Position numbers and translations under genes: made by a program. Below are positions 3,785-19,906 of a stretch of 32,816 bases of DNA, piece after piece (the first letter of the stretch is position 1; each line of letters starts with the position of its first letter). The stretch is from positions 1 through 32,816 of the forward strand of contig JARXAM010000116.1 in assembly GCA_029865845.1 (NCBI GenBank), read 5' to 3'. The notes beneath the pieces are model-generated. The model was not told where the DNA came from and did not search any database. It saw only the letters and a program-made list of their open reading frames with translations. The DNA comes from Rhodoferax sp. GTDB lineage: Bacteria; Pseudomonadota; Gammaproteobacteria; Burkholderiales; Burkholderiaceae_C.

Positions 3785-3802
3785 GATGAAGGCTCCAGGG
3801 GC

Positions 3803-4678: not shown

Positions 4679-4724
4679 GGATAGACCTCGTGTGCAATAG
4701 GTGATGGTGAATGCGTGCGGGTGG

Positions 4725-4756
4725 GCCGCTGCCCCAGCGCTGGCCGGGGCAGCGGC
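4725..4756 (-). promoter_or_regulatory. Intercistronic hairpin after the CUT1 binding-protein gene
   Basis: GCCGCTGCCCC (4725-4735) and GGGGCAGCGGC (4746-4756) form a perfect 11-bp GC-rich stem with a 10-base loop. It lies eight bases past the binding-protein stop and well before the permease start at 4678. There is no T-tract, so mRNA 3'-end protection or partial attenuation fits better than a full terminator. The same arrangement follows the other two binding-protein genes in the window. Confidence 0.6.
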
Positions 4757-4764
4757 TCAGCCCT

Positions 4765-6096
4765 TCACACCTTGTAGCCGGCCTCGCGCATGATTTGCGT
4801 CACAGGTGCCACCAGGTCGTTGAGGGCGGCCTCGGCTGTTTTCTTGCCCGTCAGCGCCTCAGAAATCCCAACCCCCAGCGCCTGGACGTTGATCTTGTCC
4901 CACACCGCGATGATGGGGCGCCAGTCGGGGTTTGAGTATTTGAGTGCCTCTTTGAAGGTAATGAACTCCGGGTACTGGCGCACCAGTTCCACATCGGACA
5001 TGGTGGAGTTACGCGTAGGCGCACCCCCCAGGCGTGTGACCGCCTTGTCCTGCTGCTTGGAGGTCAGCCACTGCATCAACAAAAATGCGGCGTCGGCATT
5101 TTTGGCATTTTTCGGAATGGCCAGACCTAGGCCACCGGACTGTGATGCGCGCCGTGTGCCCATGGGGTGCAAGGCCCAACTCACTTTGCCTGCCACCCTG
5201 GACTTGGTGGGGTCGTTCACCAAGCCCGCCAAGGAGGTGCTGTCCAGGTACATCGCTGCTTGGCCCTGCAAGAATGCGGTGTTGCTCTCGCCCTGGCCAT
5301 AGCCGGGGATACCGGCGGGGCCTGTGGCCACCACTTCTTGCAAAAACTTGAGCGCTTCAACGCCGGGTTTGTCGTTGAAGCGAGGGCGCCATTGCGCATC
5401 AAACACACTGCCACCCAAGGGATTTAAGTGCAGTAGCCAGGCATGGACCGCCTGATGCCCGGCTTGTCCGCGTGACGCCAGTGCGCCTATACCTTCCTTG
5501 TCCTTGATGACGCGCAGCAGCTCACGGAATTGGCTGTAGTTCTCCGGAATCTTGAGGTTGTGCTTGGCAAAAATGTCATTGCGGTAGGCCAGCACCGACG
5601 TTTCTGCCCCATAGGGCAAACCGTACAGTTTGGCGCCCGGGCCAGCAAGGTAACCCTTGGGCCCGCCGACCATGCCCAGGTTTTCCAAGTAGATGGGGAT
5701 GATGTCCTTGATGTCGTAATTGGGGTCCGCAAGCGCGGGATTTTTCAGGAAGGGTTCGAGCTCATGCACCAGGTTTTTGGACACGTACTCGGTTTTCCAC
5801 ATCACCACATAGCAGCACAAGTCGTAGTCGCCGGTAGACTTGGCCATTTCCAGTAGTTGCTTGTCTTTCATGCGGCCAATGGCCAAACGGTCAGTTTCGA
5901 CTTTGATGCCCGTTTCTTTGGTGAACTCCGGCAAGATCTTCAGCATCGCGTCGTAGTGCGGATGCGAGGGAATGCTGATCGTCACCGTTTTTCCGGCGTA
6001 CTTCGCAAACCGGTTTTGGGCGTGTGCGCTTACCCATGGGATGCTGGCTCCCACCAGTGCGGCAGAACCAGACCCGATAAATTCACGTCGTTGCAT
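4765..6096 (-). CDS. CUT1 ABC transporter sugar-binding protein (family 1), Tat-type signal
   Basis: This 443-aa periplasmic solute-binding protein is of the MalE/UgpB class, a normal length for the family. The N-terminus has twin arginines (Arg3-Arg4) in RREFIG, a hydrophobic stretch and an Ala-rich end (SAHAQ, about residue 27), which suggests export by the Tat pathway rather than Sec. The body shows typical family patterns such as MAKSTGDYDL, YLAGPGAKLYGLPYGAE and LGLAIPKNAKN. A GAGGAGAC ribosome-binding site precedes the ATG. The gene sits between its ATPase and its two permeases. The ligand is unknown. Confidence 0.88.
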   Translation of the reverse strand: MQRREFIGSGSAALVGASIPWVSAHAQNRFAKYAGKTVTISIPSHPHYDAMLKILPEFTKETGIKVETDRLAIGRMKDKQLLEMAKSTGDYDLCCYVVMWKTEYVSKNLVHELEPFLKNPALADPNYDIKDIIPIYLENLGMVGGPKGYLAGPGAKLYGLPYGAETSVLAYRNDIFAKHNLKIPENYSQFRELLRVIKDKEGIGALASRGQAGHQAVHAWLLHLNPLGGSVFDAQWRPRFNDKPGVEALKFLQEVVATGPAGIPGYGQGESNTAFLQGQAAMYLDSTSLAGLVNDPTKSRVAGKVSWALHPMGTRRASQSGGLGLAIPKNAKNADAAFLLMQWLTSKQQDKAVTRLGGAPTRNSTMSDVELVRQYPEFITFKEALKYSNPDWRPIIAVWDKINVQALGVGISEALTGKKTAEAALNDLVAPVTQIMREAGYKV

Positions 6097-6153
6097 GCTG
6101 TCTCCTCAGTAAGTAATGGTCAAAAAACACAAGTGGCGCGAGAGAACAAAAAC

Positions 6154-7248
6154 TCAGGCGCGCAGACTGCGACCTGATTCAGAATCGAACACATGCAAGT
6201 CGTCGCTTGCGAACGTCAGTCCCAACGCCTGGTGTAGCTGGGTCAATGCATTGCCGGGCAACATGGCGGATACCCGTTGTCCGCCGGGGGTTTGCAAATG
6301 CCCGACCACCTGACTTTCGGTGCCCAGGTACTCCACCACATCCACCAGCAGGGTGAATTGCGCGTGCTCCGGGCTGCACGCTTTGAGGTGTTGGGGGCGC
6401 AGGCCAATGGTGAGCCCCTGTTCTGGGTTGGGCAGCCGGTCTGCCAGCCACTGGGGTGCGGCAAAGGCAAAGCCCTCGCCACGCAACATGCACTGGCCAG
6501 CCTCTTGCGTGCAGCGCCCCTTGAAGAAGTTCATCGTCGGCATACCGATGAACCCGGCCACAAAAGCGCTGGCAGGACGGGTGAACACCTCCGTAGGGGT
6601 TCCCACCTGCTGAATCCGGCCCTTGTCAAAAATGACAATGCGTGAGGCCAGCGTCATGGCTTCTACCTGGTCGTGCGTGACGTATATCGTCGTTTTGCCC
6701 AACCGCTCGTGCAAGATGGCAAGCTCGGCCCGCATGTGGCCGCGCAATTTGGCATCCAGGTTGGACAGGGGCTCGTCAAACAAAAACACCTGGGGTTCAC
6801 GCACAATGGAGCGGCCAATGGCAACGCGCTGGCGCTGTCCACCCGAGAGGTCTTTGGGCTTGCGCGCGAGCAAGTGTTCTATGTTGAGAATCTTGGCGGC
6901 GGCCGTGACTTTTTCATGCACTTCGGCGTGCGGGCGACCCGCCAGGCGCAGTGCAAACGACATGTTCTCGCCCACGTTCATGTGGGGATAAAGCGCGTAG
7001 CTTTGAAACACCATGGCGATGTCGCGGGCCATGGGGGGCAGGTGGGTGACATCCCGCCCGCCAATGCTGATGCGGCCCTCGGTCACTTCTTCGAGCCCGG
7101 CGATCATGCGCAAGGTGGTGCTCTTGCCGCAGCCGGATTCGCCCAGCAGCACAACAAACTCCCCCTCTTGAACCGATAAGTTCATTTGTTGGACGACGGT
7201 CACGTCGCCAAAGCGTTTCACCACATTGTTGATGTCTAGTCCTGCCAT
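6154..7248 (-). CDS. ugpC: CUT1 ABC transporter ATP-binding protein (UgpC/MalK-like)
   Basis: This 364-aa cytoplasmic ATPase energises the CUT1 importer. Walker A GESGCGKST is at residues 36-44, the Q-loop is in VFQSYALYPH (about 80-89), signature LSGGQ at 134-138, Walker B FLFDEP at 155-160 and the switch His at 192. The C-terminal third (about 235-364) is the TOBE/MalK-type regulatory region. Such ATPases often serve several CUT1 systems; here the gene is adjacent to a matching binding protein and permeases. The family call is firm. The gene symbol reflects family resemblance, not proof of glycerol-3-phosphate transport. Confidence 0.88.
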   Translation of the reverse strand: MAGLDINNVVKRFGDVTVVQQMNLSVQEGEFVVLLGESGCGKSTTLRMIAGLEEVTEGRISIGGRDVTHLPPMARDIAMVFQSYALYPHMNVGENMSFALRLAGRPHAEVHEKVTAAAKILNIEHLLARKPKDLSGGQRQRVAIGRSIVREPQVFLFDEPLSNLDAKLRGHMRAELAILHERLGKTTIYVTHDQVEAMTLASRIVIFDKGRIQQVGTPTEVFTRPASAFVAGFIGMPTMNFFKGRCTQEAGQCMLRGEGFAFAAPQWLADRLPNPEQGLTIGLRPQHLKACSPEHAQFTLLVDVVEYLGTESQVVGHLQTPGGQRVSAMLPGNALTQLHQALGLTFASDDLHVFDSESGRSLRA

Positions 7249-7278: not shown

Positions 7279-8028
7279 TCAGGGTTGTGTGGACGGCGGG
7301 TGCCACGGGTTTTGTTGCGTGCGCCTCACCCCCCAGCCAATCGGGGGGCGTTGCATGCCCGGCAACTCCGGGCTGGTGCCCCAGATCGCCTGGTAGGTGT
7401 CGATGCAAGACCCGCGGCGTTGCAAGTACACGGCGACGCCGACCAGCAGCGCCCACCACGCGGCCAGGGCGCACACCATCCAGCGTGGGGCATCAGCGCT
7501 GACCATTCCCAGCAGGACCACCACTACGGACACCAGCACCGCCAACCAGCCCATCGATTTGTGCAGGCGCTCAAACGCTATGCGCCATGGGGTCATGTCG
7601 AAGTGGTCTCCTCGGAGTTGCACATCGGTAGGCCCCCCTTTGCTTCCGCGCACGATGCCGCCAAGCACCTGGAGCCAGCCCAACACCAAGACCAACCAAC
7701 CCAAGAGGCGATGCATGCCGGTGGCACTGAAGGGGGCCGCTTCGGAGGGGCGCCAGACCAGCCACAAGCCCAGGCTCATGACCAATACCCCTGTGTATTG
7801 CAAGGTGCGATGGCCGTGCCACCACAGGGGGTTGTCCAGCTCGGCGGGCCACCGCTGGCGGGGCGTTACCTTGAAGTAGCGCGCAACCAAGGCGCCCGTG
7901 GGTAGCAAAACGCCCCACGCCAGTACCATGGCACGGGCGTGCCAGTAAACGCTGGGCGCAATGGTGTGCTCGGTGCTGCCCGATACGGAGCGGCTAAGCC
8001 ACTGCATGGATTGGGCCCAGAGTTCCAT
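7279..8028 (-). CDS. Cytochrome b561-like multi-helix membrane protein
   Basis: This 249-aa protein has about five to six hydrophobic helices. Histidines sit at helix ends in the pattern expected for b561-type haem ligation: His30 (YWHARAM), His71/73 (WWHGHR), His106 (GMHRLLGW) and His156 (ERLHKSMGW). The motif ARYFKVTP after the first helix is common in bacterial cytochrome b561-domain proteins. Its role would be transmembrane electron transfer, but the partner is not identified. It lies 15 bases downstream of the aldehyde dehydrogenase gene and 30 bases upstream of the CUT1 ATPase gene, so it is probably co-transcribed. It could link a periplasmic sugar or aldehyde oxidation to the quinone pool; this is inference. 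Confidence 0.7.
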   Translation of the reverse strand: MELWAQSMQWLSRSVSGSTEHTIAPSVYWHARAMVLAWGVLLPTGALVARYFKVTPRQRWPAELDNPLWWHGHRTLQYTGVLVMSLGLWLVWRPSEAAPFSATGMHRLLGWLVLVLGWLQVLGGIVRGSKGGPTDVQLRGDHFDMTPWRIAFERLHKSMGWLAVLVSVVVVLLGMVSADAPRWMVCALAAWWALLVGVAVYLQRRGSCIDTYQAIWGTSPELPGMQRPPIGWGVRRTQQNPWHPPSTQP

Positions 8029-8043: not shown

Positions 8044-9483
8044 TCAGGCCAGCGTGTAGGCGGTCTTCACCGTGGTGAAGAACTCGGCCGCGTACCTGCC
8101 CTGCTCGCGCGGTCCGTAGCTGCTGCCCTTGCGCCCACCAAAGGGCACGTGGTAGTCCACCCCGGCGGTAGGCAGGTTCACCATCACCATGCCCGCCTGG
8201 CTGTGCCGCTTGAAGTGGGTGGCGTATTTGAGGCTGGTGGTCGCGATGCCGGCAGACAGGCCAAAGGGGGTGTCATTGGCAACCGCCAGCGCTTCGTCGT
8301 AGTCTTTGACGCGGATGACGCTGGCCACCGGACCAAATATTTCTTCGCGGTTGATACGCATGGTCGGTGTGCTGTCCACTAACAGGGCAGGTGCCATGTA
8401 AAAGCCATCGGCGTCCCGCAGGAGACGTTCACCGCCTGCGACCAGCCGTGCGCCTTCCGCTTTGCCGATGTCTACATACGACAAGTCCTGCTCCAACTGG
8501 GCGAGTGACGACACAGGGCCAATGTCGGTACCGGCTGCCAGGGCATCGCCCACTTGGATGGCAGCCATGCGCTGTTGCATGGCGTGGATGAACGACGGGT
8601 AGATTGCGTCGGTCACGATCAGGCGGCTCGATGCAGTGCAGCGCTGGCCGGTGGAATAAAAAGCGCTTTGCACACACAGCTCGACGGCGATGTTGAGATC
8701 TGCGTCGTCCAACACCACTTGGGGGTTTTTGCCGCCCATTTCCAGTTGCATTTTTTTCATGTGGCCAGCACATGCTGCTGCAATCCGCTGCCCCACACCG
8801 ACCGATCCGGTAAAGCTCACTGCCGTGATGCCGGGGTGGTTGACCAGCGCGTCTCCAATGACACGGCCCGAGCCCATGACCAGGTTGAACACACCCGCAG
8901 GAATGCCACTGCGCTGGATGATGTCGGCCAGCGCCCAGGCGCAGCCAGGCACCAGGTCGGCAGGCTTCAACACCACGCAGTTGCCATAGGCCAGTGCGGG
9001 TGCGATTTTCCAGGCAGGAATGGCCAGGGGAAAGTTCCAGGGGGTGATCACCCCGATGACACCCAAAGGCTCACGGGTCACTTCCACGCCGATGCCGGGT
9101 CGCACGGAGGGCAGCGTTTCCCCCGCTAGGCGCAGGCATTCACCGGCAAAAAACTTGAAGATGTTGCCCGCACGGGCGGCCTCGCCAATGCCTTCGGCAC
9201 GGGTTTTTCCCTCTTCGCGGGAGAGCAGGGTGCCCAGCTCTTCTTTGCGGGCCAGGATTTCATTGCCGATTTTGTCCAGTGCATCGGCGCGCGCCTGGAT
9301 GCCGCTGATGGACCAAGCCGGAAATGCCCTTTGCGCGGCGGCCACAGCGGCCCCTAGCTGGCTGACGTCGGCTTGCGCGTATTCACCGATGACGTCGGCA
9401 AGGTTCGACGGATTGACATTGGGCACATAGCCCGTGCCGGCAAGCCACTCGCCGTTGATCAGGTTGGTGTGTTGGGGAATCAT
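8044..9483 (-). CDS. Aldehyde dehydrogenase, probable 2-oxoglutarate-semialdehyde dehydrogenase
   Basis: Start placed at ATG 9483 (MIPQHTNLING), four bases after the upstream stop, with GGAG upstream. The longer open frame to 9600 would run inside the preceding gene. The 479-aa product has every ALDH landmark: catalytic Asn150 in PWNFP, the FTGSVGVG NAD-binding turn (about 224-231), general-base Glu248 in LEMGGK and nucleophile Cys282 in GQRCTA. ALDHs of this length encoded next to a DHDPS-family keto-deoxy-acid dehydratase typically oxidise 2-oxoglutarate semialdehyde (2,5-dioxopentanoate) to 2-oxoglutarate with NAD(P)+. The substrate is inferred from that context. Confidence 0.88.
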   Translation of the reverse strand: MIPQHTNLINGEWLAGTGYVPNVNPSNLADVIGEYAQADVSQLGAAVAAAQRAFPAWSISGIQARADALDKIGNEILARKEELGTLLSREEGKTRAEGIGEAARAGNIFKFFAGECLRLAGETLPSVRPGIGVEVTREPLGVIGVITPWNFPLAIPAWKIAPALAYGNCVVLKPADLVPGCAWALADIIQRSGIPAGVFNLVMGSGRVIGDALVNHPGITAVSFTGSVGVGQRIAAACAGHMKKMQLEMGGKNPQVVLDDADLNIAVELCVQSAFYSTGQRCTASSRLIVTDAIYPSFIHAMQQRMAAIQVGDALAAGTDIGPVSSLAQLEQDLSYVDIGKAEGARLVAGGERLLRDADGFYMAPALLVDSTPTMRINREEIFGPVASVIRVKDYDEALAVANDTPFGLSAGIATTSLKYATHFKRHSQAGMVMVNLPTAGVDYHVPFGGRKGSSYGPREQGRYAAEFFTTVKTAYTLA

Positions 9484-9487
9484 GGGT

Positions 9488-10417
9488 TTAGTGGCTCCAG
9501 CGAAGTACCAGTGGGTCGAGACGTCGGGCGGCATCCAACAAGCCCTTGCGGACGTCGGGATGCATCTCGGGGAAGGGGTGGCGTGGCGACTCACATGCAA
9601 TGACGCCGCCCTCTTTCATGAGTGCTTTGGCTGTGAGAATTCCGCCTTGGCGGTTTTCGTAGTTGATCAGTGGCAACCACTTGGCATAGGCCTGGGTGGC
9701 CGCCTCGGTGTCGCCCTGGGTCCAGGCATCCATGATTTCGCAGATGCCATCCGGGTAGGCCCCACCGGTCATAGCGCCGGTCGCACCGGCCTGCAAGTCG
9801 GCCAGCAAGGTGATGGCTTCCTCGCCATCCCAGGGCCCTTCAATTGCCTCGCCACCCAGGCGGATCAGTTCACGAAGTTTGGAGGCAGCACCCGCCGTTT
9901 CAATTTTGAAGTACGCGACGTTGCGAATCTCCTTGGCCATGCGTGCCAGAAAGGCCGCCGATAGCTTGGTGCCGCTGACAGGCGCGTCCTGGATCATGAT
10001 GGGGATATCAATCGCGTCCGACAGCCGGGCGTAGAACTCGTAGATCTTGTCTTCCTCCACCCGCAAGGTGGCCCCGTGGTAGGGGGGCATCACCATCACC
10101 ATGGCCGCGCCAGCGTCCTGCGCACGGCGGCTGCGGGCGGCGCAAATGTCGGTAGAAAAATGGGTGGTGGTCACGATGACGGGCACGCGCTCCCGCACAT
10201 GTTTCAAGATGGCCGTGGTCAGCACCTCGCGCTCTGCATCCGAGAGCACAAACTGCTCTGAGAAGTTCGCCAGAATGCACAGGCCCGTCGATCCGGCATC
10301 GATCATGAAGTCCACGCAACGCAACTGGCTGGTCATGTCGAGCTCACCCGACGGGGTGAACGTCGTGGGCACTACGGGGAAAACGCCGCGTAAGCGCGGG
10401 TTGGACAGGGTGTACAT
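9488..10417 (-). CDS. DHDPS-family 2-keto-3-deoxy-L-pentonate (L-arabonate-type) dehydratase
   Basis: This 309-aa class-I aldolase-fold protein carries Schiff-base Lys171 in AYFKIE. The usual DHDPS Tyr motif is replaced by IQDAPVSG (about 142-149). From memory, the N-terminal RGVFPVVPTTF, the ANFSEQF segment, the EGPWDGEEA segment and the length of 309 match L-2-keto-3-deoxyarabonate dehydratases of the Azospirillum type. That enzyme converts 2-keto-3-deoxy-L-pentonate to 2-oxoglutarate semialdehyde, which suits the ALDH encoded four bases downstream. It lies three bases downstream of the enolase-superfamily dehydratase gene. The related 5-keto-4-deoxyglucarate dehydratase is an alternative. 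Confidence 0.85.
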   Translation of the reverse strand: MYTLSNPRLRGVFPVVPTTFTPSGELDMTSQLRCVDFMIDAGSTGLCILANFSEQFVLSDAEREVLTTAILKHVRERVPVIVTTTHFSTDICAARSRRAQDAGAAMVMVMPPYHGATLRVEEDKIYEFYARLSDAIDIPIMIQDAPVSGTKLSAAFLARMAKEIRNVAYFKIETAGAASKLRELIRLGGEAIEGPWDGEEAITLLADLQAGATGAMTGGAYPDGICEIMDAWTQGDTEAATQAYAKWLPLINYENRQGGILTAKALMKEGGVIACESPRHPFPEMHPDVRKGLLDAARRLDPLVLRWSH

Positions 10418-10420
10418 CGC

Positions 10421-11617
10421 TTACTCCGTGATGGTGAAGTGGTGGAGGTACTCTGTTTTGAGCGACAGCCCCAAGCCTGGGGTGTTGTCGTCGAGCTGCA
10501 GATAGCCGTTTTCTGCAGCAGGATCGCCGTCGAAGATGTAATAAAACAGTTCGTTGCCCACCTCCACATCGAAGATCGGGAAGTACTCGCTGATGGGGCA
10601 GTTCAAGCTGCTCATGGTGAGGTGGTAGTTGTGCATTTGCCCCGCATGCGGAATGACCGGCACGCTGTAGGCCTCACACAGCGCGTTGATCTTGTGGGCC
10701 ATGGTGATGCCCCCCACCCGGTTGGTGTCGTACTGGACCACGCTCACCGCCTTGCGATCCAGCAGTTGTTTGAAGCCATAGAGACTGAACTCGTGCTCCC
10801 CCCCCGAGATGGGAATGCTGGTGAGCTGGTTGAGCTCGGCGTAGCCGTCGATGTCGTCGGCAATGACGGGCTCTTCCAGCCAGCGCGGCTGGTACTTTTC
10901 CAGCTTGGGCAGGATGCGTTTGGCGTACTCCAGGTTCCAGCCCATGTAGCACTCCAGCATCAGGTCGTTGTCATAGCCAATGACTTCGCGCACAGCCTCG
11001 ACCGACTTGAGGTTTTCCACCACACCCTGTTGGCCGTGGGCTGGGCCGTATCCAAAGCGCATCTTGAAGGCCCTAAAGCCCTGGTCTTTGAACTTTTGCG
11101 CCTCTGCCTGCATCTCTCGGAGGCCGGTGCGGTAGAGCTTGCTGTAATAGCAAGGAATTTTTTCTTTGGTGCGTCCGCCCAGCAACTTGAAAACCGGTTT
11201 GTTGACGGACTTGCCCAAAATGTCCCAGATGGCAATGTCAATGGCCGAGATGGCTGCCATGCCCACCCCCTTGCGGCCCCAGGCATGGGTGGCGCGGTAC
11301 ATGCGTTGGTTGAGGTATTCGTAGTCCCACGGGTCTTGCCCGACGACCAGCGGCGTGAGGTATTCGTCGATGATGGCCTTGGCAATGCGCGGGGCCAAGG
11401 CTACGTTGCCCAGCCCGACTATGCCGCTGTCCGTTTCCACCTCCACCACCGTCCAGCAATGAAAGCGGAAGGTGTTCATCGTGTCGGTGCCTGCTGCGTG
11501 GTGGTTGGCCTTGTTGTCATAGACCAGGTCCATCGCGTTGGAGCAAAAGTTGCCTTGGGGTGGAACGGTCTTGCCCTTCCATTCATAGACGCGAGCGCGC
11601 ACGGCGGTGATTTTCAT
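10421..11617 (-). CDS. Enolase-superfamily sugar-acid dehydratase (L-rhamnonate dehydratase-like subgroup)
   Basis: This 398-aa mandelate-racemase/enolase-superfamily protein has an N-terminal capping domain followed by a TIM barrel. Visible active-site elements are Lys185-x-Arg187 (FKMRFGYG), metal ligands Glu222, Glu248 (WLEEP) and Glu274 (SGGEHE), and the Asp297 (QYDTNRVGG)/His324 (VIPHAG) dyad. The second-strand K-x-R and the GEHE and PHAG contexts resemble L-rhamnonate dehydratase and relatives. It would remove water from an aldonate to give a 2-keto-3-deoxy acid, the substrate of the next enzyme. Because L-arabonate, L-lyxonate, L-xylonate and L-ribonate give the same keto-deoxy product, context does not reveal which is used. 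The substrate is unassigned. Confidence 0.85.
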
Positions 11618-11664: not shown

Positions 11665-12708
11665 TCACGCAGGCGTTGGGTGCGTTTGCTCCGCCAGCCG
11701 GGCGGCACCCATGCGGCATGCGATGCGCAGCGCGTTGGCAGTGGCGTCCACATTGGCACGCCCCAGACCTGCGATGTCAAACGCCGTGCCATGGGCCGGG
11801 GTGGTAATGGGAATGGGCAATCCGCCCTGCACGGTCACGCCTTGGGAGAAGCCCATCAGCTTGATGGCGATTTGACCTTGGTCGTGGTACATGGTCACGA
11901 TGGCGTCGAGTTCACCATCGCGAGCTTTGAGAAAAATGGTGTCCGCCGGAAAGGGGCCCAGCACCGGTATGCCCATGGCCGCCAGCTTGGCGATGGCGGG
12001 TTGAATAACGTCTATCTCTTCGCGCCCGCAGGTGCCGCCATCGCCGTTGTGCGGGTTGAAGCCCGCGACGGCCACGCGTGGTGCCGCGTTCCCGTTGCGT
12101 TGCAGTGAACGGTAGATCAGGGTCGCCGCGTCCATGATGCGCTGCTGATCCAGATACAGGGGCACGTCCTTGAGCGGTACGTGCGATGAAATCCGCGACG
12201 TCCACAGCCCATTGAGTGTGTTGAATTCGCAAAAGTAGCCCTGCACACCCAGATGCTGGGCAAAGTGGTGCAGCTCATCTTCATGCTGGAGTCCGGCCAT
12301 CTTCATGGCGTGCTTGTTGAGTGGCGCAAAGGTAATGGCATCAAGGTGCCCGGCCAGTGTCGCGTCCATGCACAGGTCCAGCACCTGGAGCACCGAGGCG
12401 CCACAGGCAGCAAGGGTCTGGGCCTTGGTGACTTGGTCGGGCCGAATCGTCTGCAGTGGCAAAAAGGCTGGGGTGTTTGGATGCGGGCGTCCGCGCACCT
12501 CCGACAAGCTGGCGACGCGCTGCGTGGCAACGGTCAGGCCGGCAACGGCTTGGCCGTCTTCCCAGAGCCATTCGTCCCCGACCAGCACCACATTGGCCAG
12601 TGCCATCATGTCGTGACGCGCCAACAGCCGGGCGATCAGCTCTGGGCCAATGCCGGCGGGGTCTCCCAGCGTGACGGCAACTACGGGTAGGGGTGTGGAA
12701 TGTGTCAT
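11665..12708 (-). CDS. PdxA2-like 4-phospho-sugar-acid / 4-hydroxythreonine-4-phosphate dehydrogenase family protein
   Basis: Start at ATG 12708 (MTHSTPLPVVAVTLGDPAG), the usual N-terminus of the family; the upstream extension would run through the intercistronic hairpin. The product is 347 aa. The metal-binding histidines of PdxA are conserved as His176 (SSHVPL), His220 (NPHNGDGG) and His275 (YHDQG). PdxA-family enzymes are NAD-dependent oxidising decarboxylases of 4-phospho-3-hydroxy acids. Copies in catabolic clusters (PdxA2) usually act on 4-phospho-D-threonate or -erythronate made by a DUF1537 kinase. No such kinase is present here, and the location inside a sugar-acid operon argues against the pyridoxal-phosphate biosynthetic copy. 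The exact reaction is unresolved. Confidence 0.82.
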   Translation of the reverse strand: MTHSTPLPVVAVTLGDPAGIGPELIARLLARHDMMALANVVLVGDEWLWEDGQAVAGLTVATQRVASLSEVRGRPHPNTPAFLPLQTIRPDQVTKAQTLAACGASVLQVLDLCMDATLAGHLDAITFAPLNKHAMKMAGLQHEDELHHFAQHLGVQGYFCEFNTLNGLWTSRISSHVPLKDVPLYLDQQRIMDAATLIYRSLQRNGNAAPRVAVAGFNPHNGDGGTCGREEIDVIQPAIAKLAAMGIPVLGPFPADTIFLKARDGELDAIVTMYHDQGQIAIKLMGFSQGVTVQGGLPIPITTPAHGTAFDIAGLGRANVDATANALRIACRMGAARLAEQTHPTPA

Positions 12709-12769: not shown

Positions 12770-13879
12770 TTACTTGGCCCAGATTTTTTTGTACTCGTTG
12801 CGATAGCCGTTGTCGGGGTCAAACACGTTCTTGGGTCCGCCGTCTTTGCCCACGTTGTCTACAGTGACCAAATGCACTTTGGGGATGTAGCCTGACCAAG
12901 TCGCCTTGGAGAACGCGCGGTTGAGTTCATCGACGATTTGCCAGCCCTGCATGTTCAGTGGCTCAGGCACGGTGCCAGCCTGGTAGCGCTTGGTGCGAAT
13001 GCGCTGGTAGGCGGCTTCGGAGCCATCGCCCGCAGACACGGCCTTGGGTGCGCCGTCGCCCTTCTTGCCAGCCGCTTGCAGGCTGCTGCCCATGAAGTCG
13101 AAATACAGATCATTGATCGCCAGCGAGTGGGTCCATTTGTCGCCAAAGCGCTGCAGCAACGACGTGGTCAACTGCGGCATGCGGGTGGAGCTTTCGGCAA
13201 TGGGGCTGTCCTCAAAACTCAGCACTGTGCAGCCTCCGCACTTCTTGATCACCGCCTCCATCGCGCGCGCTTTGTACACGGCAATGGCGTATTGCGAGTC
13301 GGTGAAGATCACCACGCCGGCTTTGCCACCCGAGTCGGCAACCGCAGACAAGGCTGCCACTTCGGACACGTCGTCTGCTGTGGTGGTCACGTTGGCAAAC
13401 AGGCCTGCTTCTGCGTTGGGTCCGGGCTTTTCACCCGAGTGCCAGCCCACCAGCGGAATGCCAGCCTTGGCCGCGTTGGCAAATGCAGCCTTTTGCTCGG
13501 TGGTGTCAAAGCCGCCCACCACGATACCGCCGGGCTTGAGGGCGAGGGCCTGGTTCAGGGCGGCGGTGCGTCCGCTTACCGAGCCTTGGCCGTCCATAAC
13601 CCGCACCTTCCATCCGATGGCTGCCGCCGCTTCTTCCACGCCTTTAGAGACGCCAAGAATGCCGCCGTTCTTTAGGTCAGCCGCCACAAACACAATGGTT
13701 TTGGCAGCCACGGCCTTGGGGCCGGTGGTCGGGCCGTCCCATGTGCTCTTGGACTGGGTCGCAATCTGCACCTTCTTCTTCGCAGCGTCCAAAAATTCAT
13801 CGGCCATAGCGTGGCCCGCAAAACCAGCCGCCGTGATGGCGATGGCTATCGCGCCTAAACGCGCACTGAACTTCTTCAT
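12770..13879 (-). CDS. CUT2 ABC transporter sugar-binding protein (periplasmic-binding-protein family 4)
   Basis: This 369-aa protein has a Sec signal peptide (MKKFSARLG..., cleavage probably after AMA at about residue 26). The two-lobe sugar-binding fold of the ribose/xylose class follows, with landmarks KGVEEAAAAIGWKV, GGIVVGGFD and SAGDGSEAAYQRI. A strong AAGGAGAC ribosome-binding site lies just before the ATG. It precedes a gap with a perfect hairpin and follows its permease (41-base gap) and ATPase genes. It delivers an unknown pentose, sugar acid or lactone to the CUT2 permease. Confidence 0.88.
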   Translation of the reverse strand: MKKFSARLGAIAIAITAAGFAGHAMADEFLDAAKKKVQIATQSKSTWDGPTTGPKAVAAKTIVFVAADLKNGGILGVSKGVEEAAAAIGWKVRVMDGQGSVSGRTAALNQALALKPGGIVVGGFDTTEQKAAFANAAKAGIPLVGWHSGEKPGPNAEAGLFANVTTTADDVSEVAALSAVADSGGKAGVVIFTDSQYAIAVYKARAMEAVIKKCGGCTVLSFEDSPIAESSTRMPQLTTSLLQRFGDKWTHSLAINDLYFDFMGSSLQAAGKKGDGAPKAVSAGDGSEAAYQRIRTKRYQAGTVPEPLNMQGWQIVDELNRAFSKATWSGYIPKVHLVTVDNVGKDGGPKNVFDPDNGYRNEYKKIWAK

Positions 13880-13920: not shown

Positions 13921-15033
13921 TTACCCAGCGGATGAGGGGGAATGGGGTGGGGTGTCGGACGGGGCAGGTGGTGCCACGCTCTCCAGTTGCCGCTCGGCAA
14001 TACGCCGTTTGATGGAGTGGTTGCGCCGCTGCTGGGCCCAGCCCGCAATGCCAATCGACACCAACAGGGTTAGCCCGTTGAAAAGCGGTTCGACAAAAAA
14101 TGCGCCGCCAAACTGCTGAATCCCGGAGATGCCGATGGCCAATATCGCCACGCCCACCAAGGTGCCCCACACGTTGACCCGTCCGGGCCGGATGGTGGTG
14201 GAGCCCAAAAACGCACCTACCAGCGCGGGCAGCAAAAACTCCAATCCAACGCTGGCTTGCCCGATTTGCAGGCGGGATGCCAGCAACACACCGGCAAAAC
14301 CCGACAACATGCCCGATGCCACAAACGCACCCATCACATGCTTGCGCACGGCAATGCCGTTGAGTTGCGCGGCTTTCGGATTGGCCCCGATCACGTACAG
14401 CGCACGCCCCAGTGGGGTGAACTCGGTGATCAGCCACATGACGACGCTGATGGCCAGCACATAAAACGCCCCTATCGGCAGGCCCAAAAAGTTGCCCCCT
14501 GCGAGGTCCAAAAAGCCTTCGGGCAACTCGCCCACCACCTGCCGCCCACCGCTGTGCCACAGCGCCACCGCATAAATGACGGTGCCCGTGCCCAGCGTGG
14601 CGATGAAGGAATCGATCTGGGCCAGCTCTACCAACAAGCCGTTGAGTACGCCAAACAAGGCGGCGCAGGCAATCACGATCAGTACGGCAAAGGGCCACGG
14701 TATGCCCAAGCGCGTTTGCAGGCTGATGGCCAAGATGTGCCACAGCACAATGCCGTAGCCCACGGTGAGGTCTATCTTGCCCGTGATCATGGGAATGGTG
14801 GCTGCCAAGGCCAGTATGGCAATGACCGACTTGTCCGCCAGAATGGCCCGCAGATTGAACAGGGTGGGGAAGGTATCGGGCAGCAGCACTGCAAACAACC
14901 CAGCCAGCCCTATCGTCAGAAACACCAGCCCGTAAACCGGCGTGGCCTGGGTAATGCGCTGCATCACACCGACCGCTGCGCCGTCTACCGCAGGATCGGG
15001 TTCAAGCGCCGTGGATTTCATTGAGGTCGTCAT
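13921..15033 (-). CDS. CUT2 ABC transporter permease (RbsC-like)
   Basis: This 370-aa, highly hydrophobic inner-membrane protein of the RbsC/XylH class shows typical signatures: MITGKIDLTVG near the second or third helix, SFIATLGTGTVIYA (about 165-178), GANPKAAQLNGI (about 217-228) and a C-terminal GV.ILAIGISGIQQ. About eight to ten transmembrane helices are expected, with the N-terminal 25 residues cytoplasmic. Its ATG overlaps the stop of the ATPase gene by four bases, indicating translational coupling. In CUT2 systems one permease works as a homodimer, so no second subunit is needed. Confidence 0.9.
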   Translation of the reverse strand: MTTSMKSTALEPDPAVDGAAVGVMQRITQATPVYGLVFLTIGLAGLFAVLLPDTFPTLFNLRAILADKSVIAILALAATIPMITGKIDLTVGYGIVLWHILAISLQTRLGIPWPFAVLIVIACAALFGVLNGLLVELAQIDSFIATLGTGTVIYAVALWHSGGRQVVGELPEGFLDLAGGNFLGLPIGAFYVLAISVVMWLITEFTPLGRALYVIGANPKAAQLNGIAVRKHVMGAFVASGMLSGFAGVLLASRLQIGQASVGLEFLLPALVGAFLGSTTIRPGRVNVWGTLVGVAILAIGISGIQQFGGAFFVEPLFNGLTLLVSIGIAGWAQQRRNHSIKRRIAERQLESVAPPAPSDTPPHSPSSAG

Positions 15034-16565
15034 GCGAGAGACTCCAGTTGGTTGGTGTGGGGGAGGGCTGCGGCGCTACCGCCGGCAGCTAGCTTGAGAA
15101 GGTTGCCCACCGTGATGTCGCCACCGGTCAGCTCGGCGGCAATGCGCCCGTTGCGAAACACCAGCACGCGGGTGCACACGGTGGCTACTTCTTCAAAATC
15201 GGTGGACACCACCGCCAGCGCAGTGCCTGCGTTGGCCTGGGCGCGAAGAATGTCGTAAATCTGCCGCTTGGCACCCACATCCACGCCTGCGGTGGGCTCC
15301 TCCAGCACCACCAGGTCTTTGTCCAGATTGAACCAGCGGGCCAGCACCACCTTTTGCTGGTTGCCGCCCGAGAGTTGCTGCGCCTCTGCCTGGGGAGCCG
15401 GAGGGTTGACGTCGAACAGACCGATCAGGCGCATGGCCTGTGTCCACTCGCGCTGGCCCCGGTCAAAGGCCAGGCCCCGTTCGCCCTGCAGCGATGGGTT
15501 GGGAAACAGGTTTTCCTGCACCGACATGGATGGGGCCAGGTTTTCGTCCAGCCGTTCACTGGCCACGTAGGCCACACCCGCTGCAATCGCTTGCGCGCAG
15601 TCGGTAAAGTGCACCGGTTTTCCATGCAGTTTCATCTCGCCAGCAGACAGTGGCTCGCGGCCAAACAGGGCGCGACTGATAGCCTCGTGCCCCGCCCCGC
15701 GCAGCCCGATCAGGCCTACCACCTCGCCCCGTCGAATCTGCAACGACAGTGGCCCGGCGTTGCCGCTGGCAGCGTCCACCAGCTCTAGCACCGTGGCCGC
15801 GTTGGGTTGGGGTTGGGCTTTGGCCACGGTGCCCGAGAGCGACTTGCCCACAATCAGATTCACCAGCTCGGTGGTGTCGGTTTGGCTGGTGTTTTTGATA
15901 TCCACAAGCCGGCCATCCCGCATCACAGCGGCGCGGTCGGAGATCGCCATGACCTCATCCAATCGGTGCGAGACATACACCATGGCCATGCCTTCCCGGC
16001 GCAAGGTGCGCAGCACGCCAAACAGGCGCTCCACATCGGCCATGGGCAGGCTGGCCGAGGGCTCATCGAGCACCAACACTTTGGCTTGTACCTCCAAGGC
16101 CCGACCAATGGCCAGGAGCGACTTTTCGGCACGCGTGAGCGAAAAAATGCGCCTGCCAGGGTCTATGTCGCAGCCTACGCGTTGCATCACTCTGCGTGCC
16201 CGTGCGTCTGCCTCTTGCCAGTGGATCAGGCCAAAGCGCTTGGCGTAACCCATCCCCAAGGCCACGTTCTCTGACACCGTCATCCACTCCACCAGGCCCA
16301 GGTCTTGGTGGATAAATGCGACCGGTTGTTTGGAGCGGTCTGCGCTGCGCCATTGGCTCTGCGGTTGCCCCTGGAAAAAAATCTCGCCGCTATCGCAGGG
16401 GTAGATCCCTGCCAGCAGCTTGATCAGGGTGGACTTGCCCGCCCCGTTTTCCCCCAGCAAAGCGAGGATCTCCCCGGCATGCACGTCCAAGCTTATGTTG
16501 CCCACGGCTTGGGTGCCGCCAAAGCGCTTGTTGACGCCTTGGAATGCGAGTACAGGCCCGCTCAC
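15030..16565 (-). CDS. CUT2 ABC transporter duplicated ATP-binding protein (RbsA-like)
   Basis: This 511-aa protein has two nucleotide-binding domains in tandem. The N-terminal domain has a good Walker A (GENGAGKST, 38-46) and Walker B (VLVLDEPSASLP, about 163-174), but the signature motif is degenerate (LTRAE, 143-147, instead of LSGGQ). The C-terminal domain is the reverse: its P-loop is non-canonical (GLRGAGHEA) while LSGGNQQKV is intact. Such complementary degeneration leaves one or two composite sites and is common in CUT2 ATPases. The gene overlaps both neighbours by four bases. Confidence 0.9.
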   Translation of the reverse strand: MSGPVLAFQGVNKRFGGTQAVGNISLDVHAGEILALLGENGAGKSTLIKLLAGIYPCDSGEIFFQGQPQSQWRSADRSKQPVAFIHQDLGLVEWMTVSENVALGMGYAKRFGLIHWQEADARARRVMQRVGCDIDPGRRIFSLTRAEKSLLAIGRALEVQAKVLVLDEPSASLPMADVERLFGVLRTLRREGMAMVYVSHRLDEVMAISDRAAVMRDGRLVDIKNTSQTDTTELVNLIVGKSLSGTVAKAQPQPNAATVLELVDAASGNAGPLSLQIRRGEVVGLIGLRGAGHEAISRALFGREPLSAGEMKLHGKPVHFTDCAQAIAAGVAYVASERLDENLAPSMSVQENLFPNPSLQGERGLAFDRGQREWTQAMRLIGLFDVNPPAPQAEAQQLSGGNQQKVVLARWFNLDKDLVVLEEPTAGVDVGAKRQIYDILRAQANAGTALAVVSTDFEEVATVCTRVLVFRNGRIAAELTGGDITVGNLLKLAAGGSAAALPHTNQLESLA

Positions 16566-17491
16566 AGCATCACCACCATGGAAACATCGGGTTCTTTTTG
16601 GGTAGCGATGTAGCGCAGTACTTTGAGCTCTGCGGTGTCCAGCACGGCGACCCGGTCGGAATCCAGTGACACGAAAGCCAGCGCTTGGGTTGGGTGCATG
16701 CTCATGGCGATGCAGCGCCCCCCCAGAGGGAGGTATGCCACCTCACCCAAATGGTTGGGGTCCACCACCGACAAGGACCGGTCGCCGTAGTTGCTGGTAA
16801 ACAGCCGTCCGTCGGCTGCGCGGTAAATGCGCGTCACATCGTCCCGCGAAGGGGCGCTGCGTTGCACTGTCATGCTCAGGGTGTCTATGGCGCACAGCGT
16901 GTTGCTCCAGCGGTTGCTGACAAACAAGGTTTGCTCGTCGGCACTCAGGCAATAGCCCTCTGGTTTTTGTCCTGGGTGGCAGGCCAGGGGGGCAAACAAG
17001 GGGTCCCAGGGCTTGACTTTGGTGACCGTGTGGCTGAGCAGGTTCATGCAGTAGGCGGTCTGCCCATCACGTGTCAGCGCAAACAAATGGCTCTTGATGC
17101 CGCCAGAGGGCACCGCCCTGCGCGCGGCGGTGTCGGTGTCGGGTTGGTCCAACACCAGCAGGGTGGACTGGGCCTCGCTGAGCGCATACAGCCGGTCGTG
17201 CTGGTCCATTTGCAGCCCGTGAATCCGGTTGAAAGGCGACAGGTCTATTGACCGTACCAGTTTGGGCGAACGAATGTCAATTTGCAACAACGAGTGCCCG
17301 CCGGCCCCGGTGTGGCCTGACGTTTCCACCCCGTAATGGCCCACGTAGGCGTAGCGCTGTGCCGCATCGGTCACAAATTCGTGGGGAAAGTCGGGCAAGG
17401 GCAAGGAATGCAGCCTCTCGCCGCTTGCAATGTCATACCAGCTAAAGCAGTGTGAACACTTCTCTACCAACAACAGCGTTTCTCGAGCCAT
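16562..17491 (-). CDS. YncE/YVTN-type beta-propeller protein of unknown function
   Basis: This 309-aa protein consists of repeated blades with patterns such as LYALSEAQSTLLVLDQ, LFVSNRWSNTLCAIDT, LFTSNYGDRSLSVVDP and AFVSLDSDRVAVLDT, consistent with a seven-bladed propeller. No signal peptide is evident, so it is probably cytoplasmic. A CSHC pair (Cys12, Cys15) near the N-terminus is unusual for the fold. It lies between the SMP-30 lactonase and the CUT2 ATPase genes and overlaps the latter by four bases, so it belongs to the operon. A second lactonase (as in 6-phosphogluconolactonase-like propellers) or a sensor is possible; the catalytic role is not established. Confidence 0.7.
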   Translation of the reverse strand: MARETLLLVEKCSHCFSWYDIASGERLHSLPLPDFPHEFVTDAAQRYAYVGHYGVETSGHTGAGGHSLLQIDIRSPKLVRSIDLSPFNRIHGLQMDQHDRLYALSEAQSTLLVLDQPDTDTAARRAVPSGGIKSHLFALTRDGQTAYCMNLLSHTVTKVKPWDPLFAPLACHPGQKPEGYCLSADEQTLFVSNRWSNTLCAIDTLSMTVQRSAPSRDDVTRIYRAADGRLFTSNYGDRSLSVVDPNHLGEVAYLPLGGRCIAMSMHPTQALAFVSLDSDRVAVLDTAELKVLRYIATQKEPDVSMVVML

Positions 17492-17509: not shown

Positions 17510-18439
17510 TTAAGGAACCTGAATGCCACGGGCATTCAGACGGATGCGATAGAGGGACGTGGTCGCGCAGATATACAGCTCGTTGCGTTGCGCACCGCCA
17601 AAAGTCAGGTTGCCCACCTTTTCTGGCACAAACACCTTGGCCAGCAAGGTGCCGTCGGGGTGATAAACCTGCACGCTGTCTTGGCTGCTGGTGTACACCC
17701 AGCCCCTGCGGTCTATACGAAAGCCATCGGAGAGTCCTGGTGTTATCACTGCAAATACGCGGGGGTTGGACAGTGCCTGCCCGTCGACGACGTCAAAGCA
17801 GGCAATGTGGTGATGCCCCGCACCGTTGGGGGCCAGCGCTGCCGAGGTGTCTGACACGTAGAGCAAGGATTCGTCGGGCGAAAACGCCAGCCCGTTGGGC
17901 TCTTCCACCCAGGTGCTCACGCTGCTTAAAGTGCGGGTACGCGGGTCAAACCGAAACACATGGTTGTCGCCCAGTTCCGACTCCGCCTGGTGGCCTTCGT
18001 GGTTGGAGGCAATGCCATAGGGTGGGTCGGTGAACCAGATGGTGCCATCGCTTTTCACCACCACGTCGTTGGGGGAGTTCAGGCGCTTGCCCTCCCAGCG
18101 GTCTACCACCACCTCATCGCGCGCTGCGCCGGGGCCGCAGGGGTTTATCGTGCGCATGATGGCCCTGAGCCCGTGCGAGCAATGCAGCAGTGAGCCGTCG
18201 GCTTCCCGGTAATGCCCGTTGGTGAATTCGACCTGGTCGCGCCACACCGACGTCCCATCGGTGGGGTGCCAGCGCATCATCCGGTTGTTGGGAATGTCGC
18301 TCCACAGCACGCTGTGGTCTTCCGACATCCAGATAGGGCCTTCGCTCCACGCCGCGCCAGTGGCAAGGCGCTCCAACACCGCACCGTCGTCCAGCAAGTG
18401 AGTGGCCCGTCGGTCCAAAATGAGCGCGGTGCCTAGCAT
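17510..18439 (-). CDS. SMP-30/gluconolactonase family sugar lactonase
   Basis: This 309-aa six-bladed propeller hydrolyses sugar-acid lactones to aldonates using a divalent metal. The expected metal-site contexts are present: Glu33 (SEGPIW), the NSPND segment (121-125), Asn182 (EPNGLAFSP) and Asp238 (LSDGF). It has no signal peptide, so it acts in the cytoplasm. Its ATG overlaps the TGA of the regulator gene (TGATG). In this operon it would convert an imported or oxidatively formed aldonolactone to the acid used by the RhmD-like dehydratase. The lactone identity is unknown. Confidence 0.87.
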   Translation of the reverse strand: MLGTALILDRRATHLLDDGAVLERLATGAAWSEGPIWMSEDHSVLWSDIPNNRMMRWHPTDGTSVWRDQVEFTNGHYREADGSLLHCSHGLRAIMRTINPCGPGAARDEVVVDRWEGKRLNSPNDVVVKSDGTIWFTDPPYGIASNHEGHQAESELGDNHVFRFDPRTRTLSSVSTWVEEPNGLAFSPDESLLYVSDTSAALAPNGAGHHHIACFDVVDGQALSNPRVFAVITPGLSDGFRIDRRGWVYTSSQDSVQVYHPDGTLLAKVFVPEKVGNLTFGGAQRNELYICATTSLYRIRLNARGIQVP

Positions 18440-19161
18440 CAGTTCGCCATTTCTTGGAGGGTGGTGGTTTTCACCTGTTCCAAATGCGACCGCATGGCCC
18501 CCACCGCAATGTCGGGGTTGCGTGTTTTCAAGGCCTCCACAATCTTGCGGTGGTCGTCCACACTGTGGCGGATGGCACCAGGGCGCTGCAGCGCCCGGCG
18601 GCGATATTCCAGCGCGTAGTCATAAAAATCCGACACCACATCCACCAGCAAGGAGTTGCCGCAGGCACGGTACAGAGTGACGTGGAATTCGCGGTCGGAA
18701 ATCTGAAAACCTACTGGGTCTTGTTGCATGGTTTCTTGGTCTCTGACCAGTTCTGCCAGGCGCGCCAACTCGTTGTCCCCAATCCTTTGCGCGGCCAGCC
18801 AAATAACCTGCAACTCCACCGCCGCGCGGGCCTCGGTTACTTCTTCAAAGCTCCGGTCTTTCAGGTTGCCCAAGGTACTCACCGACTCGTGCATGGGTAG
18901 CAGGCCCGGCCCCAGCACGCGGGTCCGGGAGCCCTGGCTGACTTCCACCATGCGGCGGGCATGCAAGACGCCGATAGCCGCCCGCACCGTCTCGCGCGAC
19001 ACCTCCAGGGTAGTGGCCAGCGTGCGCTCAGACGGCAGCTCATCACCGGCGCGCAGCAGCCCAGAGTGAATCATGTAGGCCAACTTGTCGCTGATCTGCT
19101 CTTTGACGGTGCGCTTGCTCACACGACCGTGTTCGCCGGGGATGCGATCAATAAGTTCCAT
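18439..19161 (-). CDS. GntR-family transcriptional regulator, FadR/FCD subfamily
   Basis: Start chosen at ATG 19161 (MELIDRIPGEH); the frame extends to 19263, but that stretch contains the likely operator and shows no family homology. The product is 240 aa. A winged helix-turn-helix occupies about residues 15-80 (LPSERTLAT...VSRETVR), followed by an FCD ligand domain. Its metal ligands are visible: Asp156/His160 (DREFH), His204 (DDHRK) and His226 (MRSHLEQ). FCD regulators usually repress sugar-acid operons and are released by a carboxylic-acid effector. It is the first gene of the locus, so autoregulation of the whole operon is likely. The lactonase start overlaps its stop. Confidence 0.88.
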   Translation of the reverse strand: MELIDRIPGEHGRVSKRTVKEQISDKLAYMIHSGLLRAGDELPSERTLATTLEVSRETVRAAIGVLHARRMVEVSQGSRTRVLGPGLLPMHESVSTLGNLKDRSFEEVTEARAAVELQVIWLAAQRIGDNELARLAELVRDQETMQQDPVGFQISDREFHVTLYRACGNSLLVDVVSDFYDYALEYRRRALQRPGAIRHSVDDHRKIVEALKTRNPDIAVGAMRSHLEQVKTTTLQEMAN

Positions 19162-19165
19162 AAGG

Positions 19166-19211
19166 TGGTAGATATCGGTGACTGGTAAACTGGTAGATCC
19201 ATCGTACCAGT
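19166..19211. promoter_or_regulatory. Candidate GntR operator cluster (TGGTA / TACCA half-sites)
   Basis: Three TGGTA half-sites (19166-19170, 19183-19187, 19191-19195) and one TACCA (19205-19209) lie 5-50 bases upstream of the regulator ATG. The last two form a perfect 7-bp inverted repeat, ACTGGTA-N9-TACCAGT (19189-19211). The first two of the ACTGGTA copies are direct repeats eight bases apart. TGGT...ACCA dyads are typical FadR-subfamily operators, although usually with a shorter spacer. The arrangement fits autoregulation at the operon promoter. Confidence 0.55.
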
Positions 19212-19525
19212 GGATTTGAACTAAGCAATACAGGGTTTTCCCGCATGGTTTGTGGATGGACATCCATCGCTACCATCTGTGCTCGTCACCAAGAGGATGC
19301 TTCAACAAGGGCATGCTTGCCACGCACTCAGCCGGTGTAGGGGCGTCGGCCAGGGTTGATCTGGCAACACCTTGCCGTATGCACCGGCAGCGAAGGATTG
19401 CCAGTCGCGGTTATGCGTGCTTAGGTTCTCCCGCCTCGCCAATTTTTGCGGTTAGCATGCCCCCGGTCTCGATAGCCCGCGTCGGCGGGCGGCTGGGAGC
19501 GCACATTTTCTTTTAGAGGTCTTTT
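19212..19525. other. Intergenic region between the divergent regulator and cupin genes
   Basis: No supported ORF is present. It must hold the promoters of both divergent units, but no convincing -35/-10 pair could be picked. A GCCCGC-GTCG-GCGGGC hairpin lies at 19475-19490. It is followed 24 bases later by AGAGGT (19515-19520), the ribosome-binding site of the TTG-started cupin gene. A T-rich stretch (19508-19527) surrounds that start. Confidence 0.4.
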
Positions 19526-19906
19526 TTGAGCACGTTTACCCAAGTCATTTTGTTCACTGACACCGATGGCTTTGCCAAGTTCCGTGAGGAGACGATTTCT
19601 CTGGACCATGGCAATCCACAGTCCGTGTTGTCCCAGGTGTTTGCGTCAGGGGGGTATCAATTTCGCACCAGCCCGGTGGGGTTTCGCAGCGCGTTTCATT
19701 GCTCGGGGCACACGCAGTGGTGCTTTATCTTGCAAGGGCAGATGGAGATTGGGGTGCACGGCGGATCGCGCGTGTTTGGGCCGGGGCAGCACTTTTACTC
19801 AGCGGACTTGCTGCCCGAGGGCGCGACGTTTGACCCTGCTATCCACGGCCACTGGAGCCGCCAGGTCGGCGACCAGCCCTTGGTGACCTTGTTTGTGCGG
19901 GGCTAA
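19526..19906 (+). CDS. Small cupin-domain protein with TTG start
   Basis: The 126-aa protein is a single beta-barrel cupin. Motif 1 is represented by FHCSGHTQWCFILQG (His58, His62) and motif 2 by FGPGQHFYSADLLP (His89). The start codon is TTG at 19526: AGAGGT lies five bases upstream and the first in-frame ATG is at residue 73, inside the barrel. No signal peptide. The activity (dioxygenase, isomerase or ligand binding) cannot be assigned. It is transcribed away from the sugar-acid locus and its stop codon overlaps that of the convergent dehydrogenase gene, leaving no room for a terminator between them. Confidence 0.75.
   Translation: MSTFTQVILFTDTDGFAKFREETISLDHGNPQSVLSQVFASGGYQFRTSPVGFRSAFHCSGHTQWCFILQGQMEIGVHGGSRVFGPGQHFYSADLLPEGATFDPAIHGHWSRQVGDQPLVTLFVRG

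Follow-up and report, generated by a model that had tools for sequence, protein, structure and literature searches.

A PdxA-family protein encoded without a kinase in Rhodoferax sp. as the very likely decarboxylase of an L-ascorbate catabolic operon

A PdxA-family gene at positions 11665 to 12708 on the minus strand of a Rhodoferax sp. contig was read, in a preliminary description of the locus, as a PdxA2-like dehydrogenase that lacks the neighboring DUF1537 kinase normally supplying such enzymes with a 4-phosphorylated acid. This raises the question of whether the kinase lies elsewhere in the genome or whether the protein, here called P0001, acts on an unphosphorylated or different substrate, which the same description held would be a new reaction. 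The window, meaning the whole stretch of 32,816 nucleotides that was analyzed, makes up the entire contig C17; the genome to which it belongs measures 2.74 Mb and has a completeness rating of 75.8%.

The 347-residue open reading frame was verified on the minus strand, the frame on the plus strand being broken by stops. P0001 matched the Pfam PdxA family PF04166 above cut-off (279 bits, E 5.7e-83), and its residues H176, H220 and H275, all three intact as previously reported, align with H166, H211 and H266 of E. coli PdxA, which we take to bind the metal; the domain and the three histidines together place the protein in the PF04166 superfamily. An AlphaFold model (mean pLDDT 83) confirmed the fold, and a Foldseek search with this model returned PdxA, PdxA2 and TphB, all as strong matches, so that structure left the choice of substrate undecided. 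Seven NCBIfam equivalogs for PdxA and PdxA2 matched P0001 at E<=1e-10, none of them with a score that reached its curated cut-off.

With the biosynthetic PdxA of vitamin B6 synthesis P0001 has the Pfam family and the fold in common, yet we regard it as extremely improbable that this is its role: the score against TIGR00557 (biosynthetic PdxA) was 258.9 bits versus a cut-off of 290.35, the protein falls in a different clade, and its gene stands in a catabolic operon. In addition, the genome encodes a second PdxA with an intact substrate site on contig C13, and PdxJ on contig C29; P0001 is neither the only copy nor a protein that clusters with PdxA, two features that had been named beforehand as part of the case for a biosynthetic enzyme. 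The second copy would be the biosynthetic one, given that no PdxA besides these two was found and that PdxJ is present. Neither rsmA nor surA, taken as a biosynthetic sign, was present in the 20-kb stretch surrounding it; among the loci tested these genes stood only beside the two copies nearest to E. coli PdxA (L163 and L165).

In order to compare substrate sites, P0001 was aligned with 108 other PdxA-family sequences: E. coli PdxA, the genome's second PdxA, two plasmid-borne PdxA2 (one annotated as D-threonate 4-phosphate dehydrogenase, the other beside a four-carbon acid sugar kinase), 15 further PdxA-like genes from related genomes, one TphB-like gene situated between dioxygenase genes, 12 intermediates, the homologue on a Variovorax PBL-E5 plasmid (L171), and 75 clade sequences from 80 genome loci, five having been dropped since the matched stretch could not be translated without a stop. 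H136, T137, N283 and R292 of E. coli PdxA are reported as substrate positions in its UniProt entry. All four were kept in 19 of 19 PdxA- or PdxA2-type sequences, and the set was lost in all 75 readable clade sequences, L171, P0001, the 12 intermediates and the TphB-like sequence (90 in total), with P0001 carrying E145, L146, T292 and I301 in their place. The metal histidines and the lysine (K283) were retained in every sequence compared. This residue test separated 19 PdxA/PdxA2-type from 90 other PdxA-family sequences.

A tree of 47 rows, including 13 of the 75 clade sequences, recovered the P0001 clade as one group (support 100/100), which joins the intermediates at 100/99, apart from both PdxA and PdxA2. 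The joint PdxA/PdxA2 group has a weakly supported boundary in this tree (76/65). Long branches lead to the TphB-like sequence and to the Pantoea PdxA2, whose placement is unsure. Judged by sequence, P0001 is a member of a separate clade that is neither biosynthetic PdxA nor kinase-linked PdxA2. The tree, as proposed in the preliminary description, and the alignment of phosphate-type residues agree in setting P0001 apart from both; with the substrate residues lost and the NCBIfam PdxA2 cut-offs missed, its PdxA2 label is not supported. A broader group of PdxA-like proteins, with about 40-54% identity to P0001, is also without the phosphate-type residues. Four genes of this broader group, at L041, L044, L173 (S. 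meliloti pSymB) and L177 (a Pacificitalea plasmid), have no LyxD nearby and adjoin TctC or TRAP transporters, an amidohydrolase (L044) or a tartrate dehydrogenase (L177).

The kinase itself was sought by a profile search for DUF1537 (PF07005), which gave 0 matches in the 75.8% complete source genome and was positive in 3 of 14 control genomes. Within the window, no kinase family was found among the 20 open reading frames scanned with Pfam, the remaining frames being named by eye, and three DUF1537 queries against 104 loci around PdxA-family genes gave no match at E<=1e-3. The observation that the locus encodes no kinase was therefore sound, and P0001 is without the adjacent DUF1537 kinase expected for a kinase-linked PdxA2. 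DUF1537 genes do occur in 17 of the 21 searched genomes of the order. Nine of these relatives have a close P0001 homologue, and in the 8 of them that also have DUF1537 it lies on a different contig or at a distance of at least about 177 kb from the clade gene. When 11 DUF1537 loci of clade genomes (L133-L143) were inspected, a PdxA-family gene was present in the fetched stretch only at L140; this gene is a distinct PdxA2 paralogue (40% identity to PdxA2 versus 35% to P0001), and its genome, that of Achromobacter sp. Root83, also encodes a clade protein (L115) about 180 kb away.

The wide occurrence of DUF1537 in related genomes and the incompleteness of the source genome would fit a true catabolic PdxA2 whose 4-phosphorylated substrate comes from a kinase encoded elsewhere. 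We nevertheless hold such an identity for P0001 to be very improbable, given the 104 loci lacking DUF1537, the position of kinase-linked PdxA2 sequences outside the P0001 group with their four substrate residues kept, and the coexistence in Achromobacter sp. Root83 of a clade protein with a separate DUF1537-PdxA2 pair. Of the two branches left open in the preliminary description, the distant kinase fares poorly, and the unphosphorylated or different substrate is the better and probably the right one, because the phosphate-type site is lost, the protein has a clade of its own, and the logic of the operon points the same way.

That operon lies entirely on the minus strand. A mandelate-racemase-type enolase of the L-lyxonate dehydratase (LyxD) family (10421-11617) keeps K185-x-R187 and H324, and its best PDB match is 3stp (E 9e-190 over the full length), the L-rhamnonate dehydratases reaching about 2e-56. 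We take 3stp to be the LyxD of L. aggregata; R187 and H324 of the window enolase fall on 179 and 316 after an 8-residue gap in the 3stp alignment, and are presumably equivalent to the essential residues Arg179 and His316 of LyxD. The PDB labels 3stp a putative galactonate dehydratase. An identity as L-rhamnonate dehydratase was considered for the enolase and rejected, the NCBIfam model giving 223.9 bits versus a cut-off of 393 and 3stp being far closer. A DHDPS-fold protein (9488-10417), the predicted L-2-keto-3-deoxypentonate dehydratase, matches the solved L-2-keto-3-deoxyarabonate dehydratase (7c0c/3fkk) at E 1e-151; by their stereochemistry, L-lyxonate and L-arabonate give rise to the same 2-keto-3-deoxy acid. 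An aldehyde dehydrogenase of the alpha-ketoglutarate semialdehyde dehydrogenase (KGSADH) type (8044-9477) has AlphKGSA_gudD as its best NCBIfam model (506.7 bits, under the cut-off of 770).

Further members of the operon would act before P0001. A membrane protein with a cytochrome b561 domain (7279-8028), predicted to carry out ascorbate oxidation, barely reaches the PF03188 cut-off (23.1 versus 23 bits), and the Variovorax PBL-E5 gene at the corresponding place is annotated as a cytochrome b561 domain protein. An SMP-30/gluconolactonase family lactonase (17510-18439) matches PF08450 at 144 bits, and a YncE-like beta-propeller (16562-17491; PF21783, with a TIGR03866 match under cut-off) is the predicted benzilic-acid rearrangase on the strength of its family and co-occurrence. 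ABC importer 2 consists of a periplasmic sugar-type binding protein (12770-13879, PF13407), a permease (13921-15033, PF02653) and an ATPase (15030-16565, PF00005 in two stretches), and a GntR/FCD regulator (PF00392 and PF07729) is encoded at 18439-19263. The other ABC importer, second of the two (2957-7248), comprises permeases at 2957-3784 and 3803-4678, named by eye, an SBP_bac_1 protein at 4765-6096 and an ATPase at 6154-7248; genes resembling it adjoin the operon in L088, L090, L111, L127, L038 and L171. On the plus strand, 28-1290 and 1654-2865 encode two similar-looking tandem proteins, the second of which weakly matches the SASA carbohydrate esterase family, and 19526-19906 encodes a small protein that resembles cupins, with a cupin match under cut-off; its gene diverges from that of the GntR regulator.

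A bacterial pathway of L-ascorbate breakdown was reportedly described by Stack and colleagues in 2020 in Ralstonia eutropha H16. In that pathway b561 is said to oxidize ascorbate, after which a gluconolactonase acts; a WD40-like protein then reportedly performs a benzilic-acid rearrangement giving 2-carboxy-L-lyxonolactone, and an amidohydrolase lactonase follows. A PdxA-family decarboxylase with catalytic NAD+ is said to convert unphosphorylated 2-carboxy-L-lyxonate to L-lyxonate, which the LyxD route reportedly takes to alpha-ketoglutarate. The window holds seven of the eight enzyme classes of this pathway as reported, and P0001 fits the decarboxylase step; LyxD, the keto-deoxy-pentonate dehydratase and KGSADH are present together, and b561, gluconolactonase and propeller stand together here and in L171. 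The one class missing is the amidohydrolase lactonase, of which none was seen in the window and for which the incomplete source genome gave no PF04909 match over cut-off; this bears on the operon, not on P0001 itself. Stack et al. 2020 and the L-lyxonate paper are cited elsewhere for ascorbate degradation that needs a COG4948 enzyme (PMC10444878). The chemistry also proceeds non-enzymatically in plants, where, according to a second article, diketogulonate gives 2-carboxy-L-lyxonolactone, 2-carboxy-L-xylonolactone and 2-carboxy-L-pentonate, slow carboxyl loss then yields L-lyxonate and L-xylonate, and benzilic-type rearrangement with CO2 loss is thus documented non-enzymatic chemistry (PMC11066805).

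Taken together, these results make it very likely that P0001 serves as the PdxA-family decarboxylase in a bacterial operon for the catabolism of L-ascorbate (vitamin C). Ascorbate would be oxidized by the cytochrome b561 protein and its ring opened by the SMP-30 lactonase to 2,3-diketo-L-gulonate, which the beta-propeller would rearrange to 2-carboxy-L-lyxonolactone, and a lactonase would open the latter to 2-carboxy-L-lyxonate. As the predicted 2-carboxy-L-lyxonate decarboxylase, using NAD+ catalytically, P0001 would oxidize the C3 hydroxyl of this acid with its metal and bound NAD+, the resulting beta-keto acid would lose CO2, and the bound NADH would re-reduce C3 to give L-lyxonate with a net redox change of zero; LyxD, the L-2-keto-3-deoxypentonate dehydratase and the semialdehyde dehydrogenase would then lead from L-lyxonate to alpha-ketoglutarate. 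The basis of this reading is the family memberships, the conserved gene coupling, the loss of the phosphate-type residues and the separate clade, from which we infer what reactions take place in this organism, in what order the C3 steps run and which acid is the substrate. A kinase would be unnecessary because the pathway has no phosphorylated intermediate, and a substrate without phosphate would account for the lack of a kinase as well as for the residue losses. The substrate of P0001 is very probably a branched sugar acid that carries no phosphate, and the missing kinase has an ordinary answer.

Gene company across the clade was examined next to that of the window. Relatives of P0001 at 64-72% identity were found in 9 of 299 other genomes searched in the order, and the best 80 of at least 548 loci, at 61-84% identity, were taken from named genomes, most of them presumably Burkholderiales by their names; with 8 further loci and 1 plasmid, 89 clade loci were counted. 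A LyxD-type enolase is present in 85 of these 89 (in 84 of them at most 1.5 kb away from the PdxA-like gene) and in 1 of 32 control loci, the Cupriavidus sp. EM10 locus L172, in which the same set of partners accompanies a PdxA relative of 54% identity. As for the loci counted without enolase, L058 is cut inside the enolase gene (a 76% fragment is visible), L105 has none in 10 kb downstream and its contig stops 125 bases upstream, and L062 and L081 have a DHDPS-type gene directly next, in the enolase's stead. A DHDPS-type dehydratase occurs in 68 of the 89, and all three kinds of step (LyxD, keto-deoxy-pentonate dehydratase and KGSADH) occur together in 21. Twelve other loci without a DHDPS-type gene (e.g., L130:12300-13301) carry a conserved protein that looks FAH-like by eye and has no Pfam match; it is possibly a non-orthologous replacement of the dehydratase. 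The nearest relative among the matches listed, at 84%, is from Rhodoferax lacus (L053), whose contig repeats the gene order of the window starting at the GntR regulator and breaks off at the DHDPS gene. The Variovorax PBL-E5 plasmid carries PdxA, enolase, DHDPS, b561, ABC, SMP-30 and YncE genes in a single stretch.

Comparison with known systems places P0001 more closely. PdxA2 (D-threonate/D-erythronate 4-phosphate dehydrogenase; 2hi1, 6e85; DUF1537-linked) has the fold and metal site in common with P0001, and oxidative decarboxylation is common to PdxA2 and the predicted P0001 reaction, whereas PdxA2 is about 33-37% identical, keeps the four substrate residues and works with a kinase. The L-lyxonate pathway of Pseudomonas aeruginosa PAO1 has the same tail of LyxD, dehydratase and KGSADH as the window; as reportedly described by Ghasempur in 2014 it starts at L-lyxonate, the upstream PdxA step being said to have been added in 2020. 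The reported ascorbate operon of R. eutropha H16 has in common with the window the b561, gluconolactonase, WD40-like propeller, LyxD, keto-deoxy-pentonate dehydratase and KGSA dehydrogenase, and differs in its amidohydrolase lactonase, the likeness being one of gene company. TphB (terephthalate cis-dihydrodiol dehydrogenase/decarboxylase; 4aty, 8zhy-8zj7) combines the PdxA fold and metal with an unphosphorylated carboxylated diol, and is described as a PdxA-family member acting on an unphosphorylated acid (PMC13040137). The TphB-like sequence, as P0001, is without the PdxA substrate residues, but TphB belongs to an aromatic pathway, is 23-27% identical and performs a net dehydrogenation. The most fitting view of P0001 is that it adds one more member to an already described pathway; the new reaction once suggested for it is not supported, since the step corresponds to the pathway reported by Stack and colleagues and TphB was already known to act on an unphosphorylated acid. 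The apparent gap of a catabolic PdxA without a kinase is thereby removed. At least one annotated clade member bears the PdxA name of the B6 enzyme, and the clade is probably neither that enzyme nor a phosphate-dependent PdxA2.

The genes that would open ascorbate are distributed less evenly than the core. The b561, gluconolactonase and propeller genes are all together in only 9 of the 89 listed clade loci, and all three are absent in 42, some of which are cut by contig ends. Organic-acid binding proteins, counted by sampled cluster members, are present in 40 (TctC) and 11 (DctP) of the 80 listed named loci. Propellers were assigned to type 1 (that of the window) or type 2 according to which of two queries matched better: type 1 occurs in 18 of the 89 loci, with SMP-30 in 15 (Fisher p 3e-13, kinship ignored), and type 2 in 24, with an amidohydrolase in 23 (Fisher p 2e-15, kinship ignored), both types being present in L054 and L055. 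Two upstream modules, propeller 1 with SMP-30 (often with b561) and propeller 2 with amidohydrolase, are thus near-exclusive. At the level of genomes (22 clade and 8 others, several incomplete or without stated completeness), a propeller at E<=1e-40 was found in 11 of the 22 versus 0 of the 8 (Fisher p 0.014), while an amidohydrolase at E<=1e-40 (7 of 22 versus 3 of 8) made no distinction and b561 at E<=1e-15 (5 of 22 versus 2 of 8) no clear one. Of seven further genomes that have a type 1 propeller, four (G171, G300, G307 and G308) had no amidohydrolase at E<=1e-40 and three had a match: G305, at 37% identity, and G204 and G301, each of which has both propeller types. SMP-30 may replace the amidohydrolase in type 1 operons, to judge from these gene associations.

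The 42 loci without ascorbate-opening genes, the 11 of 22 clade genomes without a propeller match and the organic-acid binding proteins would also suit a PdxA-type oxidative decarboxylase of some other unphosphorylated branched or dicarboxylic sugar acid, ending in an L-pentonate for LyxD; we consider this unlikely for P0001, as the operon of the window itself has b561, SMP-30 and propeller, pointing to ascorbate. With ascorbate catabolism retained for the window, clade genomes that have the core without a propeller may start from imported 2-carboxy-L-pentonates; Polaromonas glacialis R3-9 (L060), for example, had no propeller, amidohydrolase or b561 match. The 11 genomes without a propeller match suggest scavenging of vitamin C decay products, and we tentatively propose, as a possibility short of likely, that the PdxA-LyxD module is independent of ascorbate uptake, that about half of its hosts, those whose genomes lack a recognizable rearranging propeller, scavenge 2-carboxy-L-pentonates from vitamin C decay, and that the ascorbate-opening parts were added twice. 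These acids would form non-enzymatically in the plant apoplast and soil and be imported by TctC or TRAP transporters, and the two additions would be b561, SMP-30 and propeller 1, as in the window, or propeller 2 and amidohydrolase. The two upstream modules, together with the loci that have none, offer a testable picture of bacterial use of vitamin C and its decay products. Additionally, a sulfatase-family gene directly precedes the b561-like gene at L094:15666-17111, with the same cluster in L084 and L108.
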